Position numbers and translations under genes: made by a program | Shown here: positions 3,568 through 56,357 of the stretch, in pieces | Numbering within the stretch: position 1 is the first letter of the stretch | Layout: each line of letters starts with the position of its first letter | The notes under the pieces: generated by a model | What the model was told of the DNA's origin: nothing | Seen by the model: only the letters and a program-made list of their open reading frames with translations | Databases searched by the model: none | DNA from: a virus | Strand: one strand, 5' to 3' | Length of the DNA stretch: 64,000 nt | Virus record (IMG/VR): IMGVR_UViG_3300021185_002756 | Span: 1-64,000 of that record

Positions 3568-3670
3568 TGGCTCTGGGGGTAGGAGTCGAACCTACAAGGT
3601 TAAATATATTGCAGTACATTCAACCACACGGTTAACAGCCGTGCGTGTTTACCAATTTCACCACCCCAGA
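3568..3670 (-). tRNA. tRNA with GUU (Asn) anticodon and long, class II-type variable arm
   Basis: The cloverleaf was folded by hand on the minus strand. The 7-bp acceptor is TCTGGGG/CCCCAGA with discriminator G and encoded CCA (3570-3568). The D arm has a GTG/CAC stem with TTGG. The anticodon stem is CACGG/CCGTG with loop CTGTTAA, so the anticodon is GUU. The T arm is GTAGG-TTCGACT-CCTAC. The variable region is about 31 nt and forms GGTTGAA/TTTAACC. Normal tRNA-Asn has a 4-5 nt variable loop. The D-arm sequence looks Leu-like, while U1-A72, G73 and the anticodon loop look Asn-like. It starts 6 nt after the synthetase-like gene on the same strand. Confidence 0.85.
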
Positions 3671-3676
3671 TTATTC

Positions 3677-4507
3677 TTATACCTTGTTGATTTTTTCTAG
3701 TGCAGGGATCATACGTGTAACACCTATGCCTCCGCCTACTCTTTGAAAGAAGTCAAACTCTAAAAACTTTTCTAGTTCTGCTTCAACTCTTTCCTTACCA
3801 AACAGTTTGAATAGTAACTCTGCATACTCTCCGCCTACAATACTATGGAATGTATCTCTCATCATATCAACATCACATGAACGTTCTGCTGATCCAATAG
3901 TTTCCATACCACCTAGTATAACATCCATCTTCTTTGCAGTATTGCCATCATCATTTCTAGCCATGTTCCAAAATGGGCTTGTTAGTTCGGGGAAGTTTGT
4001 AATAAGTGTTTGACCAAACTGTTCTTCCATCTTTAGTTCGTGTTCTGCTTCCATTTCTACGTCAGTACCGAGTCCAAAGTGTTGTTGCCATTCAGCATAG
4101 GTCTTTTCTGTAATGTTGCCAAAGCCTAAGTATTCACATAGTTCATACTCCATTGCTTTTAGATCATCTACATTACCTGGCATTTCAAATTCAAACATTG
4201 GAAATATTATATCGTGTCTACCTGGAATTGCATTTGGTTCCTGTCTGTAGGAAGTTGAGACACAAAAAAAGCCCTTTGCTGAGGGCTGACTTAGTAATTC
4301 ATGTTCTAACCACATCTGGCCTGTTTGTGGTAGTGGCCAAACATTGCCTGCATAGTTGTAAGTTGCTACATTGAATGGATCTTCGCATGCGGCTAGTATT
4401 GATAATCTGTTTTGTGTGTGTACTTCAAGAAATCCTTTTTCCAAAAAAAATGACCTTAAAAGGCCAACTGTCTCTGTGAATTTACTTGGGTCTATTAGTT
4501 GCGTCAT
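3677..4507 (-). CDS. Core-only class II aminoacyl-tRNA synthetase-like protein (AspRS/AsnRS/AsnA type)
   Basis: This 276-aa protein begins directly with a motif 1-like helix (FFLEKGFLEV). Motif 2 follows (YRQE at residues 87-90, H98, then the FEFE strand), and it ends with motif 3 GGGIGVTR (258-265). These are the ATP-binding motifs of the class II Asp/Asn/Lys group. GGGIG-R also recalls asparagine synthetase AsnA. There is no OB-fold or other anticodon-binding domain. SD AAAGGAAAA precedes ATG 4507. The unusual GUU tRNA lies immediately downstream, so co-expression is likely. It may charge that tRNA, make asparagine, or modify another acceptor; the sequence cannot decide. Confidence 0.8.
   Translation of the reverse strand: MTQLIDPSKFTETVGLLRSFFLEKGFLEVHTQNRLSILAACEDPFNVATYNYAGNVWPLPQTGQMWLEHELLSQPSAKGFFCVSTSYRQEPNAIPGRHDIIFPMFEFEMPGNVDDLKAMEYELCEYLGFGNITEKTYAEWQQHFGLGTDVEMEAEHELKMEEQFGQTLITNFPELTSPFWNMARNDDGNTAKKMDVILGGMETIGSAERSCDVDMMRDTFHSIVGGEYAELLFKLFGKERVEAELEKFLEFDFFQRVGGGIGVTRMIPALEKINKV
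4264..4287 (-). terminator. Terminator-like hairpin inside the synthetase-like gene
   Basis: The minus strand reads AGCCCT-CAGCAA-AGGGCT followed by seven T. This is a textbook intrinsic terminator or attenuator shape lying in frame inside the coding sequence (residues about 72-80). It may be coincidental. Confidence 0.35.
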
Positions 4508-4675: not shown

Positions 4676-5143
4676 CTAAAACTTATTCAAAAATCTTGCT
4701 ATGTGGTGCACCCATGGCAACAACATTATAGCCATAAACATGTTGGCACCTGTGTGTGCTATTGCTATCCTAAGTGTATCGCCTTTGGGCATACCATCGC
4801 TCACAAAAAAACCGGCTAACCAAATGGTGCCGGTGGTTCCGATGTTTGCGCCTAACACTGCCGCTATGGCTGCGGGCAGAGGCAATGCCCCTGAGGCTAC
4901 CAGTGCAATTATTGCCGTTGTACTTAAACTTGAACTTTGCCAAAGCAGTGTCATTACAATACCACCAAGGAACATATAGATTGGATTGCCCAAAAAGAAG
5001 TTCAAATGTTCCAAGTTACCCATTGACTTCATGCCACCTGAGAACATCTTCAGCCCTATATAAAATACTACCAGTCCAACAAGAGCCGTCATTATGGGAT
5101 TGCCTAAGTCCATCCTACACACCTTTTTAATAAGTTTGTTCAT
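4676..5143 (-). CDS. Half-size Na+/phosphate cotransporter-like protein (NptA/PNaS family)
   Basis: This 155-aa membrane protein contains one copy of the family repeat: GLKMFSGGMK, then QSSSLSTTAII (the QSSS signature, about residues 69-79), then GANIGTT near 99. Family members normally carry two inverted repeats, each with a QSSS motif, and often a PhoU domain. This one carries a single repeat with about four membrane segments. SD AAAGGAAC precedes ATG 5143. A role in phosphate uptake during infection is plausible if it dimerises (inference). Confidence 0.75.
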   Translation of the reverse strand: MNKLIKKVCRMDLGNPIMTALVGLVVFYIGLKMFSGGMKSMGNLEHLNFFLGNPIYMFLGGIVMTLLWQSSSLSTTAIIALVASGALPLPAAIAAVLGANIGTTGTIWLAGFFVSDGMPKGDTLRIAIAHTGANMFMAIMLLPWVHHIARFLNKF

Positions 5144-5809: not shown

Positions 5810-6022
5810 CTATATTGTCATCGGCAACTTTGGATACGGTGTTGCTATACCGTTTTGGTTGTCTAAGTACGTGCATATAAACTCTAGCATTACTGATTCA
5901 TGCATGGTCAAATAATAATCCAATGCTTCAAAACCAATTGCATCTTCGTAAACAAAATCATGTATGTAGTTTTTGCTAACGTAATCTTCTATTGCTAATC
6001 TTTCAGTTGCTATTGTAAACAT
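5810..6022 (-). CDS. Small early protein, unknown function
   Basis: A 70-aa protein from ATG 6022, chosen because SD AAAGGAAAC lies just upstream; the longer frame to 6061 would enter the promoter. It is acidic and aromatic-rich with no known motif. It is the first gene after the promoter at 6049-6077. Confidence 0.6.
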   Translation of the reverse strand: MFTIATERLAIEDYVSKNYIHDFVYEDAIGFEALDYYLTMHESVMLEFICTYLDNQNGIATPYPKLPMTI

Positions 6023-6048
6023 GTGTTTCCTTTTTCTTATTATGCTGT

Positions 6049-6077
6049 TATAATAACACACTTTAAGAATAAGTCAA
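6049..6077 (-). promoter_or_regulatory. Sigma70-type early promoter
   Basis: The minus strand has -35 TTGACT (6077-6072) preceded by AAAAAGG, a 16-nt spacer ending TGTGT, and -10 TATTAT (6055-6050). It belongs to the repeated early promoter family. Confidence 0.75.
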
Positions 6078-6108
6078 CCTTTTTCTACGATTTGGCATAA
6101 CTATCATG

Positions 6109-6118
6109 CTAAATAAAC
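6109..6118 (+). promoter_or_regulatory. T4-like late promoter upstream of the riboswitch
   Basis: The plus strand reads CTAAATAAAC, a TAAATA late core, placed just upstream of the aptamer. The riboswitch transcript would begin within about 10 nt of the aptamer. Confidence 0.45.
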
Positions 6119-6120
6119 AT

Positions 6121-6170
6121 ACGTTCACCCGAGAGGGCGGAAGTAGGCAATCGCTGAAGGAACGCACCTA
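6121..6170 (+). ncRNA. Glutamine riboswitch aptamer (glnA RNA / Downstream-peptide family)
   Basis: The plus strand contains P1 CGTTC (6122-6126) pairing with GAACG (6160-6164). It also has the hairpin CCC-GAGA-GGG, the conserved GCGGAAGTAGG and the CTGAAGGAACGCACC block. These are the consensus elements of the glnA/Downstream-peptide glutamine aptamer. A 37-codon ORF follows 27 nt later. That is the arrangement reported for cyanobacterial and phage members of this RNA class. Confidence 0.9.
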
Positions 6171-6196
6171 ACCATTTACTTAGGGAGGGTGGCAAA

Positions 6197-6310
6197 ATGA
6201 CTTACAGACCATATCAATGGAAGAAGTTTGCTGACGCACGGAAACGTGCTCTAGTTCATAAAATACTGAACTATCGCAAATCGTCTTGCATATGCAAAAA
6301 AGCTAGTTAA
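6197..6310 (+). CDS. 37-aa basic peptide under glutamine riboswitch control
   Basis: ATG 6197 follows a purine-rich SD (AGGGAGGGTGG). The peptide is very basic, with KK, RKR, HK and RK clusters and two Cys near the end. In cyanobacteria, glutamine aptamers control small basic inactivating factors of glutamine synthetase. A similar role here is inferred from the riboswitch and composition, not from alignment. Its last 8 nt overlap the oppositely oriented gene at 6303-6458. Confidence 0.7.
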   Translation: MTYRPYQWKKFADARKRALVHKILNYRKSSCICKKAS

Positions 6311-6458
6311 CTTCGACGACCTTATGGAAGGGGAATACTCGAGGTTTGGTGTTTTTAATCATTTCCATGTATTCCTCTGCCTCTTTTCTAGTTTCTAATT
6401 TTGCAATTGTTACTGGATCTTCGACACGTGGTTCGTACACAATATTAAATGTCTTCAT
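6303..6458 (-). CDS. Small conserved-looking protein, unknown function
   Basis: A 51-aa protein starting at ATG 6458, which overlaps the upstream stop by 14 nt. Mixed charge, a central helix (RKEAEEYMEMIK), no family recognised. It is the last gene of the minus-strand operon and meets the riboswitch peptide tail to tail. Confidence 0.6.
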   Translation of the reverse strand: MKTFNIVYEPRVEDPVTIAKLETRKEAEEYMEMIKNTKPRVFPFHKVVEVN

Positions 6459-6687
6459 TGTTCATTTCCCAAACATTATACACATCTGAGAATCCCATAT
6501 TCATTGGCGAATATTCACCAACATTTTCTTCTTGCCATGCATGTATATCAACCCATTGTTCTGCAGTCAGTTCGTCAATATCTTCAATTTCATAATGATT
6601 GCATATTGCAGTTTCAACACAACTATATGCTTCTCTTTCAATATGCTCTTCGTCTTTGTACATTCTTGCCCAGTCAAATTTAGTCAT
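6445..6687 (-). CDS. Acidic early protein, unknown function
   Basis: An 80-aa, strongly acidic protein rich in Glu, Trp and Met. It overlaps the upstream gene by 8 nt and the downstream one by 14 nt, so it is translationally coupled. No motif recognised. Confidence 0.65.
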   Translation of the reverse strand: MTKFDWARMYKDEEHIEREAYSCVETAICNHYEIEDIDELTAEQWVDIHAWQEENVGEYSPMNMGFSDVYNVWEMNNEDI

Positions 6688-39085: not shown

Positions 39086-40570
39086 ATGGACTTAACAACA
39101 CTTTTCCCACTGTTTGACCCGTCAGCAGGTTGGGGACTTTTGGCGCTATATGCGTCTGTTGTGTTTGCTCTTACTACATACTTTGTAAGAGGATACACAG
39201 CTGATAAAACTAGTTTCTTAGTCGCAAGGCGTGAAATTGGTGGATTCGCAGGAGCAAGTAGTGTCGGAGCCGCATGGGCTTGGGCACCATCAATGTTTAT
39301 CTCATCACAGATGGCATACCTAAATGGTGTTGCTGGATTGTTTTGGTTTTGTTTGGGCAACTTCCTAACACTGATTCTGTTTAGTTTCTTTGTTAAGAAA
39401 TTAAGGTCAATGAAGCCAGATGGATTCACGTTAGCAGGATACATTAGAGAAAAGTTTGGAAAAAGAGTGCAAAGTATCTTTTTAATTGAACTATGGATGT
39501 TAGCAACTTGTGCATTCGCACTAAACGCACTAGCAGGATCTAAAGCAGTTATGACATTAACTGGTATCAACTATCACTTTGTAACATTTGCACTAGCCGC
39601 AATAGCATTAACGTATGCATGGCGTGGTGGTTTAAAAGCAAGTGTTGTCACTGAAATCTTTAAGATTAGTGTACTATGGTTAGGAATTATTTTTGTTGTG
39701 CCGTGGGTATGGTCAGCAACAGGTGGAGTCACCGCTGGTGCAGTAGCAGAAGGACTTGGTGGTATAACAGGTATGGGCGATGGAATATTCCACAATGAAT
39801 TTGTTGTTGGTGTGTTTATGGCAGTTGGTATTAGTACAACACTAGGACACATGGGTGCTCCTTGGGGCGACAACGGCTTTTATCAAAGAGCTTTTGCTAT
39901 CAAACCAAACAGTATCATTCCAGCATTTATAGGCGGAGCATGTTTGTTTATTTTCGTTCCTATCATGATTGGTACATTAGGATTTGCAGCCGCAGGTAGT
40001 GGATTAGAAATACCAAAATCAATGGTTGGTATGACTACTATTATTTCAGTAGCAAGTGTGTTACCAAGTTGGACAGTGTTAATTCTTGTGTTTATGCTAT
40101 TAGCAGGACTTATTGCGGTGCTTGACTCTCACTTAAACAGTGCAAGTGCTTTGGTATCCAATGATGTACAAAGTAGAGTAAACGAAAAGACAACAAATGA
40201 ATCAGATATCAAATGGGGTCGTTGGGGTATGATTGCACTAGCAATTGGTGCTTTGGCAATCGCTAACTATCCTGGTATTACAATGTTAACTATCTTTTTG
40301 TTCTTTGGAGTTATGAGAGCAACTGTATGGTGGCCTGTAATGTTACATATCTGGAAGCCAAACCTTATAAATGAAAAAGGTATGTTCTGGGGTATTGTAG
40401 TTGCATTTGTAGTCGGCTTTCCAACTTTCTTTTATGGAAAAGTAATGGGCGGTGGTGCTGAATTGACCATGCTTGGTACATGTCTAACTATCTTTGGTAG
40501 TGCGGCATTATCAGTAATAATCAGTAAAGCAACCAAAGCAGATGACGCACAAGTAGTAGCGGCAGAATAA
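39086..40570 (+). CDS. Sodium:solute symporter (SSS family)
   Basis: A 494-aa membrane protein with about 13 hydrophobic helices, full-size for SSS transporters. AGASSVGAAWAWAPSMF near residue 55 and TYAWRGGLKASVVTEIFK near 174 match SSS core helices. Strong SD TAAGGAG. It would import a solute with Na+, fitting a marine host. The solute is not deducible. A complete transporter of this class in a phage is unusual. Confidence 0.88.
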   Translation: MDLTTLFPLFDPSAGWGLLALYASVVFALTTYFVRGYTADKTSFLVARREIGGFAGASSVGAAWAWAPSMFISSQMAYLNGVAGLFWFCLGNFLTLILFSFFVKKLRSMKPDGFTLAGYIREKFGKRVQSIFLIELWMLATCAFALNALAGSKAVMTLTGINYHFVTFALAAIALTYAWRGGLKASVVTEIFKISVLWLGIIFVVPWVWSATGGVTAGAVAEGLGGITGMGDGIFHNEFVVGVFMAVGISTTLGHMGAPWGDNGFYQRAFAIKPNSIIPAFIGGACLFIFVPIMIGTLGFAAAGSGLEIPKSMVGMTTIISVASVLPSWTVLILVFMLLAGLIAVLDSHLNSASALVSNDVQSRVNEKTTNESDIKWGRWGMIALAIGALAIANYPGITMLTIFLFFGVMRATVWWPVMLHIWKPNLINEKGMFWGIVVAFVVGFPTFFYGKVMGGGAELTMLGTCLTIFGSAALSVIISKATKADDAQVVAAE

Positions 40571-45738: not shown

Positions 45739-46328
45739 TGCAATTCACCTGTTACACTAAAAAAATTCCTATTGCGTATACCATAGTTTACTGCTAGATG
45801 CGGCACACCGTTTGGTATTTGATATGCATCTCCTGCACTCCAACCTGCCATGATTCTATTATCACATTGACAGAACTCTCCCCAATTCCAATCCTGTAGA
45901 TGCACTACCCATCTACCAATACGATCGGTTACACTTGCAATCTTATGATAACGATCTATGTGTAATGGCGACCCTGTGCCGGGAAGTCTAGATTTTATTG
46001 CTCCTACCACAGTGTCTAAACGAAATCCAAAAGTGTCCACTATGGTTGCTTCACCAAATATCTCTACAGTCTGTTCCAGTGTAGGATACCAAACACTGTT
46101 ATTCATTGCTTCACCTACAAAACCCACATCTGTATACACATTGGATCTCGTGGTATAGTCTACAGTGTCATACGTTTGGTTCTCAATGATATCTTCAACT
46201 ATTTCAATGTTAAACTTTACATTGGTATCACCGGTATCAAAAATTAGATCTTTATGCAAGTATTGATTCAATGGCTTGCCAAGACCCTGTTCTACAGGAT
46301 TAGGGTTTTTGTTTAAAAAATCTCTCAT
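45735..46328 (-). CDS. HxD...H oxygenase-like (aspartyl/asparaginyl hydroxylase-type) protein
   Basis: 197 aa from ATG 46328 (46349 also possible; no strong SD). GTGSPLHIDRYHK gives HxD, RWVVHLQDWNWGEFCQ the jellyroll strand, and GDAYQIPNGVPHLAVNYGIRNR the distal His. Same plan as the proteins at 41317 and 60089. Fe(II)/2OG chemistry inferred. Confidence 0.68.
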   Translation of the reverse strand: MRDFLNKNPNPVEQGLGKPLNQYLHKDLIFDTGDTNVKFNIEIVEDIIENQTYDTVDYTTRSNVYTDVGFVGEAMNNSVWYPTLEQTVEIFGEATIVDTFGFRLDTVVGAIKSRLPGTGSPLHIDRYHKIASVTDRIGRWVVHLQDWNWGEFCQCDNRIMAGWSAGDAYQIPNGVPHLAVNYGIRNRNFFSVTGELQ

Positions 46329-46458
46329 TAATACTTTTTCTTTCTTCATTTGTCATTGAGGTCCAGTTTGCAATTTCTTCCAATGTACGACCACAACCTA
46401 TACATATGTCATCCTCTACCTTGCATATGTTTACACAAGGTGATGCTAGTTCAATCAC
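46300..46458 (-). CDS. DUF1289 four-Cys (probable Fe-S) protein
   Basis: A 52-aa protein, GTG start overlapping the previous TGA, with SD GGAGAAG. The pattern SPCVNICKVEDDICIGCGRTLEEIANWTSMTNEER is split by family spacing C-x3-C-x6-C-x2-C then R-T-x2-E-I-x2-W. That is diagnostic of DUF1289, a small family linked to Fe-S or metal binding in proteobacteria. Its presence in a phage suggests acquisition from a host. Confidence 0.85.
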   Translation of the reverse strand: MIELASPCVNICKVEDDICIGCGRTLEEIANWTSMTNEERKSINERFFKQKP

Positions 46459-46646
46459 TGTTGTTTTCTTCTCCAACGGCCATACATATCAAATATACTC
46501 ATTGAAATCCATATGCCTAACAATGCATTCAGCATGAATGCTTGCCCACTTGCCAACAACTGTTTTACATGGATAAACATAAACATCGCAGTGATGAATA
46601 TCATTATTCGATCAGTCAGGTTTAACTTCACGTGTTCTTTCTGCAA
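46455..46646 (-). CDS. 63-aa membrane protein
   Basis: Two hydrophobic segments and a basic C-terminus (GRWRRKQQ). Overlaps both neighbours. Function unknown. Confidence 0.6.
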   Translation of the reverse strand: MQKEHVKLNLTDRIMIFITAMFMFIHVKQLLASGQAFMLNALLGIWISMSIFDMYGRWRRKQQ

Positions 46647-55217: not shown

Positions 55218-56357
55218 TTATCCTAATAAATTACATATTTTATGTGCTATTTTCTTAAAATCTTCTTCTACTAATCCACGTGTGGTTTCAGCGGCAGTTC
55301 CAATTCTAATACCACTTGTTTCTACAAAGTTTCTTGGGTCATTTGGCACTCCGTTTTTGTTTACAGTAATTTTATTTTCTTCTAATATGTCTGCAGCCTG
55401 CCTGCCACTGTATTTACTGGCACTCAGATCCATCAGTATAATATGACTGTCAGTGCCTCCGGTTTGTACAGGAAAGCCTTTTTGTTCAAATACTGAACAC
55501 ATTGCTTGAGCATTTTTTACAACTTGATCTGCATACTGTTCGAAACTAGGAAGTAGTGCTTCTGTATAACATTGTGCTTTTGCGGCAATGATATTCATCA
55601 ATGGACCACCTTGTGTACCAGGAAAAATACTGCTATTAATTTTACGTGTGTAATCTGGATTGTTCCACAGTATCATACCGCCTCTAGGACCTCGTAGTGT
55701 TTTGTGTGTTGTACTTGTCACTACATCTGCATAAGGCAAAGGTGAATCATATGCACAACCTGCTATCAATCCACTGTAGTGTGCCATATCTACTACAAGA
55801 AATGCTCCTACACTATCAGCAATTCGTCTAAATGCACTCCAGTCTATTTGTCTTGGATAGGCACTAGCACCAGCAACAATCACTTTGGGCCGGTTTAATT
55901 TTGCTAAACCTTCTATACGATTATAGTCTAACAGTCCACGTTCATCTACACCATATGTTACTGCGTTGTAAACTTTACCACTTAGTGTAGGAGGTGCTCC
56001 ATGTGATAAATGACCACCACTGGCTAGATCCATACCCATTAACACATCACCTGGTTTCATAAATGCTTGATAAACTGCCGTGTTTGCATTTACTCCTGAG
56101 TGGGGCTGGACGTTTGCAAAACCACAGTTGTACAACTCACATAGTTTGTCAATTGCCAGTTGCTCAATTAGATCCATGTTTTCACAACCGTTGTAGTAAC
56201 GTTTACCCGGATAGCCTTCTGCATACTTGTTGGTAAACACACTGCCACAAAGTTTCATAACTGCTTCACTTGCAAAGTTCTCACTGGCTATTAACTCTAC
56301 TGTATCTAACTGTCTACCGTGTTCTTTGGTTAAAATATATTGTATTTCTTCGTTCAT
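55218..56357 (-). CDS. glyA: Serine hydroxymethyltransferase (compact)
   Basis: A 379-aa PLP enzyme. LIASENFAS near residue 22, PHSGVNANTAVY near 85, the PLP-binding Lys in VTSTTHKTLRGPRGG near 218, and the C-terminal IRIGTAAETTRG are all SHMT. It is about 40 residues shorter than bacterial GlyA. It makes glycine and methylene-THF, feeding thymidylate and purine synthesis. Overlaps none but sits 2 nt from uvdE. Confidence 0.93.
   Translation of the reverse strand: MNEEIQYILTKEHGRQLDTVELIASENFASEAVMKLCGSVFTNKYAEGYPGKRYYNGCENMDLIEQLAIDKLCELYNCGFANVQPHSGVNANTAVYQAFMKPGDVLMGMDLASGGHLSHGAPPTLSGKVYNAVTYGVDERGLLDYNRIEGLAKLNRPKVIVAGASAYPRQIDWSAFRRIADSVGAFLVVDMAHYSGLIAGCAYDSPLPYADVVTSTTHKTLRGPRGGMILWNNPDYTRKINSSIFPGTQGGPLMNIIAAKAQCYTEALLPSFEQYADQVVKNAQAMCSVFEQKGFPVQTGGTDSHIILMDLSASKYSGRQAADILEENKITVNKNGVPNDPRNFVETSGIRIGTAAETTRGLVEEDFKKIAHKICNLLG

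Follow-up and report, generated by a model that had tools for sequence, protein, structure and literature searches.

The stretch of DNA analysed here, the window, spans positions 1-64,000 of the record of an uncultured marine bacterial virus; this record has 98,237 bases and is itself a fragment. Near its beginning, a promoter-like core, a glutamine riboswitch aptamer, and the gene of a very small basic protein follow one another on the plus strand:

6109-6115, plus strand: promoter-like core CTAAATA, read from the sequence, its place conserved in relatives
6120-6168, plus strand: glutamine-I (glnA, RF01739) aptamer, by cmscan (53.0 bits, cut-off 35)
6122-6126/6160-6164 (P1), 6128-6130/6135-6137 (P2), and 6146-6148/6153-6155 (P3), plus strand: aptamer stems, from the cmscan alignment
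6165-6191, plus strand: hairpin pairing with the Shine-Dalgarno (SD) sequence, the likely expression platform, from a consensus fold and covariation
6183-6188, plus strand: SD sequence GGGAGG, 8 nt 5' of the ATG, read from the sequence
6197-6310, plus strand: gene of a 37-aa basic microprotein (family A), from its open reading frame (ORF), selection, and aptamer linkage

The microprotein gene runs into a convergent minus-strand ORF of 51 aa (6303-6458) that overlaps its end by 8 bases, and a search of 5950-6500 for intrinsic terminator-like sites found none. The original prediction, made on the sequence of this locus, had described a lone plus-strand unit amid minus-strand genes. That is correct for the window, but the layout recurs in only 9 of the 49 family-A cassettes (48 contigs and the window); the commonest layout, in 27 of the 49, places the cassette as the last gene of a plus-strand block meeting a convergent gene, both counts resting on mechanical ORF calls. 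Of the 49 cassettes, 42 are followed by a convergent gene, 3 by a gene of the same strand, and 4 by an unknown one, so that as a rule no other gene is left for the aptamer to control.

The original prediction named an Infernal search with the Rfam glnA model as a check on the aptamer. This search (cmscan) returned a plus-strand RF01739 match at 6120-6168 that scores 53.0 bits against a gathering score of 35 (E 8.1e-9), covers the full model (1-53), and is the only one in the 98,237-base record. The alignment contains the P1-P2-P3 junction with the conserved CGGAAGUA and GAAGGAACG, and the RF01739 cut-off was passed by all 20 loci run through cmscan. Of the compound label "glnA/Downstream-peptide aptamer" that the RNA had been given, the glnA part stands and the Downstream-peptide part does not: at gathering score only RF00005 and RF01739 match in the window, and RF01704 stays below its cut-off.

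The two glutamine-binding classes have different architectures, glutamine-I being a three-way junction and glutamine-II a pseudoknot (PMC6698751), and the Downstream-peptide (glutamine-II) class is reported, in a review, as confined to marine picocyanobacteria (PMC6316151). The window RNA resembles that class in having a short conserved ORF right behind a glutamine aptamer, the products of Downstream-peptide RNAs being typically 17-100 aa (PMC2864571), but differs in lacking the RF01704 match. With glutamine-I riboswitches it shares a full-length aptamer over the family cut-off, placed directly before a start codon, and a small protein downstream, as in gifB/IF17 (PMC6316151). It differs from them in residing in a phage without sign of a cyanobacterial host (the same review calls glutamine riboswitches restricted to cyanobacteria), in its coupling to a position-conserved late-promoter-like core and to an SD hairpin with wide covariation, and in a peptide that is foreign to Pfam, PHROGs, and NCBIfam. 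Its class suggests that the window aptamer would bind glutamine.

The aptamer is placed before the start codon with a platform able to occlude the SD sequence. Directly after P1, CACCT at 6165-6169 pairs with GGGTG at 6187-6191 and takes in the SD, a hairpin that had escaped the original prediction, as had the wide spread of the arrangement. The RNAalifold consensus for 25 distinct family-A leaders contains all three stems of the aptamer and, directly behind P1, a hairpin in which the SD region forms the 3' strand; SD-like motifs are also present in the family-A leaders of relatives. Among the matches listed, 116 of 131 distinct leaders can form at least 5 bp (G-T pairs allowed) when the 7 nt that follow P1 are paired with the remainder of the linker, as against a mean of 23.5 (maximum 35) when the 3' part was shuffled and of 71.3 (maximum 83) when leaders exchanged their 3' parts, in 200 rounds each. 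Sixteen different 5-bp strand pairs occur among these 131 listed leaders, including CACCT:GGGTG, CACTT:GAGTG, CACTT:AAGTG, CATCT:AGATG, and CAATC:GATTG, and the hairpin is the likely expression platform. At the free-energy minimum of the window leader, the SD hairpin forms and P1 and P3 do not, a computed fold that fits, without proving, a ligand-free OFF state; a forced alternative pairing of CACCC with GGGTG is 2.8 kcal/mol worse than this minimum. Ligand-driven opening is not readable from the sequence, because the hairpin begins just after P1. By analogy with cyanobacterial glutamine riboswitches, which are reported as ON switches (PMC6316151, PMC6698751), the window switch would also act in the ON direction.

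The aptamer had been described as sitting right behind a TAAATA late core, and CTAAATA is indeed found at 6109-6115, in a place that is kept in relatives. In 32 of 34 distinct upstream 60-mers of family A, TAAATA ends 5-14 nt before P1, a placement that 200 rounds of dinucleotide shuffling reproduced in 1.6 on average and in 6 at most. The longer form TATAAATA is found in 25 of the 34, the window carrying the variant CTAAATA. Counted by cassette, 47 of the 49 have TAAATA in the 60 nt that precede the aptamer; in the other two, L122 and L151, another aptamer stands upstream. Neither form is enriched in the window (CTAAATA, 13 found vs 16 expected; TATAAATA, 2 found vs 6.5 expected). We take a TATAAATA-like core to be the T4-type late promoter consensus; judged by this motif, TAAATA is a putative late promoter of that type, and the transcript would be made late. 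Among the 19 proteins of the fragmentary record that were scanned with PHROGs, no late sigma factor or coactivator was found. Two minus-strand CTAAATA copies (2704-2710 and 2738-2744) precede the gene of a virion structural protein (2101-2676, phrog_12928), placed as expected of a late-promoter core; the other window copies are inside genes.

The micro-ORF with a purine-rich SD had likewise been read correctly, and its 37-aa product, MTYRPYQWKKFADARKRALVHKILNYRKSSCICKKAS, carries a net charge of +10. A search for the peptide in related phages, named in the original prediction as a further check, finds it conserved. A degenerate DNA pattern of the peptide alone retrieved 48 contigs from IMG/VR, and in all 48 both conserved aptamer motifs lie within 140 nt upstream; as a control, the same pattern gave 15 matches in genome_contigs, none with both motifs and one with a single motif, which translate by eye to unrelated proteins. 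When 31 distinct coding cores are pooled, pN/pS comes to 0.35 in the peptide's own frame as against 1.10 and 1.27 in the shifted frames; dN/dS has a median of 0.26 across 458 scored pairs, one of which exceeds 1. The family-A ORF is a real gene under frame-specific purifying selection.

Residues Y3, R4, P5, W8, K9, F11, A14, R15, A18, and R27 are invariant in 25 distinct core proteins, and invariant Arg, Lys, and Trp persist even with the most distant relative in the alignment. AlphaFold2, run from the single sequence, predicts one helix over residues 5-35 (mean pLDDT 76.9), which is not amphipathic (muH 0.23, p 0.92). The window peptide has no match in Pfam, PHROGs, NCBIfam, or PADLOC and no meaningful match among solved structures. 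A tblastn search with the peptide against 50,697 phage records gave no match, and one with a consensus-like relative as query gave only matches at E of at least 9; megablast with the first 24 kb of the window found no match among sequenced phages, where the leader gave short matches only (best E 0.3).

The observation as a whole, aptamer, core, and micro-ORF at 6109-6310, is confirmed and proves more general than was first seen. Two exact-pattern aptamer scans returned at least 120 stretches each; pooled with two peptide-based scans, the window, and the phage Melnitz, they hold at least 278 aptamer copies by pattern, or at least 274 after the removal of four rows from re-fetched loci, copies that are not independent given that many contigs are near-duplicates. 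The ORF behind each copy was chosen mechanically, as the first ATG with an SD-like motif and otherwise the best remaining candidate. Among the matches listed, 237 of the 274 copies are followed by an ATG ORF (100 aa or shorter) with an SD-like motif within 60 nt, and another 25 by a small ORF under looser rules; these 25 are mostly first copies of tandem pairs, and they include four GTG starts and two cases without an SD-like motif that are perhaps spurious (L228 and L266). Of the remaining listed copies, 9 of 274 stand where the fetched stretch ends, without a closed ORF in reach, and 3 of 274 have an ORF that runs off the contig. All 262 judgeable copies among the 274 listed thus precede an ORF of at most 100 aa, and none precedes a longer one. 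Tandem glutamine aptamers before one microprotein are seen in L122 (678-791), L151 (5541-5656), and at least 16 further loci; such an arrangement has been linked to more digital regulation (PMC2864571).

The proteins encoded behind these aptamers are mostly basic. For the 190 distinct strict ORFs among the matches listed, the median net charge is +7 and 189 are positive; a charge of +5 or more is reached by 90.5% of them versus 27% of 857 background ORFs taken at random points of the same contigs. Under our own family labels, assigned by regular expressions, the distinct ORFs fall into A (33), B (39), C (17), YRG (32), E (8), and other (61), shares that do not amount to an unbiased census because the patterns were exact and only the matches listed, from at least 120 stretches per scan, were counted. 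One superfamily for all the peptides was considered and rejected, as leave-one-family-out profiles join only WC, LW, CR, and F (AUC 0.956-1.0); family A scores weakly (AUC 0.88, with 4 of 33 above the 99% shuffle level), and B, C, and E are not joined (AUC 0.66-0.75). When ten aptamer-linked peptides were compared with Pfam, only the YRG peptide of L018 exceeded a cut-off (DUF4278, 26.5 vs 25.3 bits). The 49-aa peptides of L212 and L227 combine an E-type basic N-terminus with an NPFYP end and a YRG motif, a possible bridge between the helix and the DUF4278-like peptides.

Cultured phages carry the arrangement as well. In Melnitz-2, RF01739 is over cut-off at 46398-46446 (plus strand), followed by a 32-aa ORF with an SD (about 46469-46567, plus strand), MTLYQQWCYLKAQKEYRRRQKILMYFRIRLKG, that is unannotated on that strand; where it sits, a minus-strand CDS (46492-46593) is annotated (MZ577096.1, about 45984-46593, our locus L179). 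The Melnitz riboswitch has been put in the 3' domain of ssrA and its tmRNA described as riboswitch-controlled (PMC9004378). The aptamer begins downstream of both Rfam tmRNA models, which end at 46345 and 46390, and the deposited tmRNA feature reaches 46436 and so shares 39 nt with the aptamer; given that the riboswitch stands at the far end of the tmRNA and directly before the ORF, control of the ORF is the simpler reading. In Mosig, RF01739 is over cut-off at 92197-92250 of the record (minus strand), 16 nt before Mosig_00116 (51 aa), which resembles family C, and the tmRNA lies about 19 kb from the cassette. In S-CREM1, an RNA annotated as a glnA riboswitch precedes SCREM1_206, whose 48-aa product has a YRG motif close to its N-terminus and no Pfam match. 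These phages of OM43 (Melnitz, on H5P1), SAR11 (Mosig, on HTCC1062), and Synechococcus (S-CREM1) are like the window in that an aptamer stands 16-26 nt before a small ORF in each, but none of their peptides resembles family A. A Riboswitch Scanner survey reports no riboswitches in pelagimyophages or cyanomyophages (PMC7029224), whereas cmscan shows otherwise for Mosig.

As Melnitz links tmRNA and riboswitch, tmRNA was also looked for in the window, where the tmRNA models gave no match. Of 20 loci scanned, 4 have a permuted tmRNA gene next to the cassette, and no tmRNA was found in the other 16; the gene is downstream of the cassette in L011 (2321-2757) and upstream in L196 (331-772), L241 (13025-13402), and L261 (9545-9927).

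The genes show no sign of a cyanobacterial host: there is no psbA in the fragmentary window record, and the window clamp loader is nearest to those of Pseudomonas PA5oct-like phages (55.6%). More broadly, 2 of 50 records tested contain psbA, and neither belongs to the 28 family-A records among the 50 (the window included), all of these records being fragments. The gp23 of the family-A record L129 is nearest to those of Phage C48C1, Melnitz, a Stenotrophomonas phage, and pelagiphages (59-66%); cyanophages reach about 57%. Searched against 35 records, the window clamp loader matched 7, namely the window, L105, and L136 (100%) and L129, L140, and L150 (34-36%), all six with family-A peptides, and L037 (37%), which is not family A. 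The genes neighbouring the cassette differ; in L097 and L111 it abuts a gene that is ClpX-like by eye and whose counterpart in the window record is about 70 kb away. With family A present in records that share just 34-36% identity with the window in their clamp loader, and with such differing neighbours, the cassette seems to move between phages, and from these comparisons it appears to do so on its own. Under stricter filters, RF01739 was found in none of 398 genomes from the phylum of a Marinobacter genome.

Several other genes of the window deserve mention in their own right. A tRNA-like gene at 3571-3670 (minus strand; Rfam tRNA, 56.2 bits) has an apparent GUU anticodon by eye and an extra variable region of about 30 nt, and ARAGORN found none there. 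Adjoining it at 3677-4507 (minus strand) is the gene of a 276-aa class II aminoacyl-tRNA-synthetase-like protein (PF00152, phrog_29758); the pair at 3571-4507, odd for a phage, is perhaps an AsnRS/AsnA-like enzyme with its own tRNA. A sodium:solute symporter (39086-40570, plus strand, PF00474, 494 aa) and a short Na/Pi-cotransporter-like protein (4676-5143, minus strand, PF02690) are possible metabolic genes, and a serine hydroxymethyltransferase is encoded at 55218-56357 (minus strand, PF00464, 485 bits).

We consider the unit to be, probably, a compact late gene under two control layers, a late promoter and a glutamine aptamer with its SD hairpin, that produces a 37-aa protein. A T4-type late promoter would start a short transcript with the glutamine-I aptamer at its beginning, and the hairpin directly behind the aptamer would hold the ribosome-binding site. 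With glutamine abundant, the aptamer would fold round its ligand, the hairpin would yield, and the 37-aa protein would be translated, as in an ON switch; the alternative direction is an OFF switch. The protein, predicted to be one basic helix, would most likely bind a host macromolecule and thereby adjust nitrogen or amino-acid metabolism late in infection. Computation provides the aptamer, the promoter position, the covarying SD hairpin, the selected ORF, the strict linkage, and the presence across deeply diverged phage backbones; the host target is inferred, and its relation to nitrogen is a guess from the class of ligand. The original interpretation is thus supported in its aptamer, its conserved promoter core, and its selected peptide, and unsupported in its Downstream-peptide label and in glutamine synthetase as a target. 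Two of the outcomes that it had named as refuting, the lack of any covariance-model match and an unconserved peptide ORF, did not occur.

That target was drawn from cyanobacteria, where the aptamer before gifB controls IF17, which inactivates glutamine synthetase, where most glutamine aptamers go with DUF4278 proteins, and where IF7 requires three Arg residues (PMC6316151). A viral inactivating factor would stop host glutamine synthetase at high glutamine in the manner of IF7 and IF17, a phage-run feedback loop sparing ATP, glutamate, and 2-oxoglutarate. The riboswitch class and its logic are shared with gifB/IF17 (PMC6316151), and the window peptide is small and basic like the inactivating factors, although it has 37 aa where IF7 and IF17, the latter behind a glutamine riboswitch at gifB, have 65 and 149 (PMC7760959). 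An IF17-type protein from an Acaryochloris plasmid, whose gene showed no aptamer motif upstream, unites YRG/DUF4278 repeats with an IF7-like C-terminal part. YRG peptides also stand behind other phage aptamers, and one of these peptides passes the Pfam DUF4278 cut-off. In shuffle comparisons with the IF7 and IF17 cores, the family-A profile gave p of about 0.016 and 0.009 and the CR family 0.013 and 0.006, values that are unconvincing because 16 tests were made and the other 12 were not below 0.09. The pooled profile gave p 0.10 (IF7) and 0.26 (IF17), and with so weak a link for family A, we do not class the peptide as an inactivating factor. No clear counterparts of the three Arg of IF7 were seen in the peptide. 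Neither NCBIfam IF7A (NF052599) nor Pfam DUF4278 (PF14105) matches it, with no NCBIfam family at E up to 10, where an IF7 sequence scored 123.6 bits as positive control. The host of Melnitz is said to be without glnA (PMC9004378), yet Melnitz has the cassette. An inactivating factor is therefore an improbable reading of this peptide.

A nitrogen regulator such as PII might be bound instead of glutamine synthetase, as by PirA, a small protein tied to nitrogen status that is described as acting on PII in cyanobacteria. The tie between DUF4278 proteins and glutamine riboswitches (PMC6316151) speaks for this, but family A has no sequence link to any named protein family in Pfam, PHROGs, or NCBIfam, and we regard the idea as doubtful. 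The net charge of +10, the invariant Arg, Lys, and Trp, and the single, non-amphipathic predicted helix (p 0.92) would also suit a peptide that is made when the amino donor is plentiful and tunes ribosomes or RNA, and permuted tmRNA genes do lie near the cassette in 4 of 20 loci and in Melnitz; with tmRNA found neither in the window nor in 16 of those 20 loci, and with that of Mosig about 19 kb off, an action on translation or nucleic acids is unlikely. Rising glutamine has been suggested as a lysis trigger for Melnitz (PMC9004378), which together with the late-promoter position could point to lysis timing or membrane activity, but a helix that is not amphipathic (muH 0.23) and shows no transmembrane-like stretch by eye makes such a role very unlikely. 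Hardly credible is a leader peptide or spurious ORF with the aptamer controlling something else: the ORF is very short and without a family-library match, but its selection is specific to the frame, the aptamer linkage holds in 48 of 48 contigs, and the downstream gene is convergent in 42 of 49 cassettes.

Riboswitches have been called rare in phages, and phage glutamine riboswitches are already published, having been read as control of tmRNA or of general nitrogen genes (PMC9004378, PMC9964418). In searches of the open-licence literature, the family-A peptide, its aptamer link, the covarying SD hairpin, and the microprotein rule were not found. A bolder and distinctly speculative proposal, which we rate as improbable, is that many marine phage lineages share a mobile cassette that closes their own nitrogen loop through diverse microprotein effectors, with the halves of IF17, the YRG/DUF4278 part and the basic helical part, occurring as separate genes behind the same switch. 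For phage biology at large, the arrangement, which many other marine viruses combine with differing microproteins, may represent a means, little noticed so far, by which viruses react to the nitrogen state of their host cell, and the cassettes of Melnitz, Mosig, and S-CREM1, being in cultured phages, make the idea testable now. If it is true, lytic phages would sense a central metabolite during infection and act through tiny effectors, and the aptamer would serve as a genetic tag for viral effectors overlooked by gene callers.
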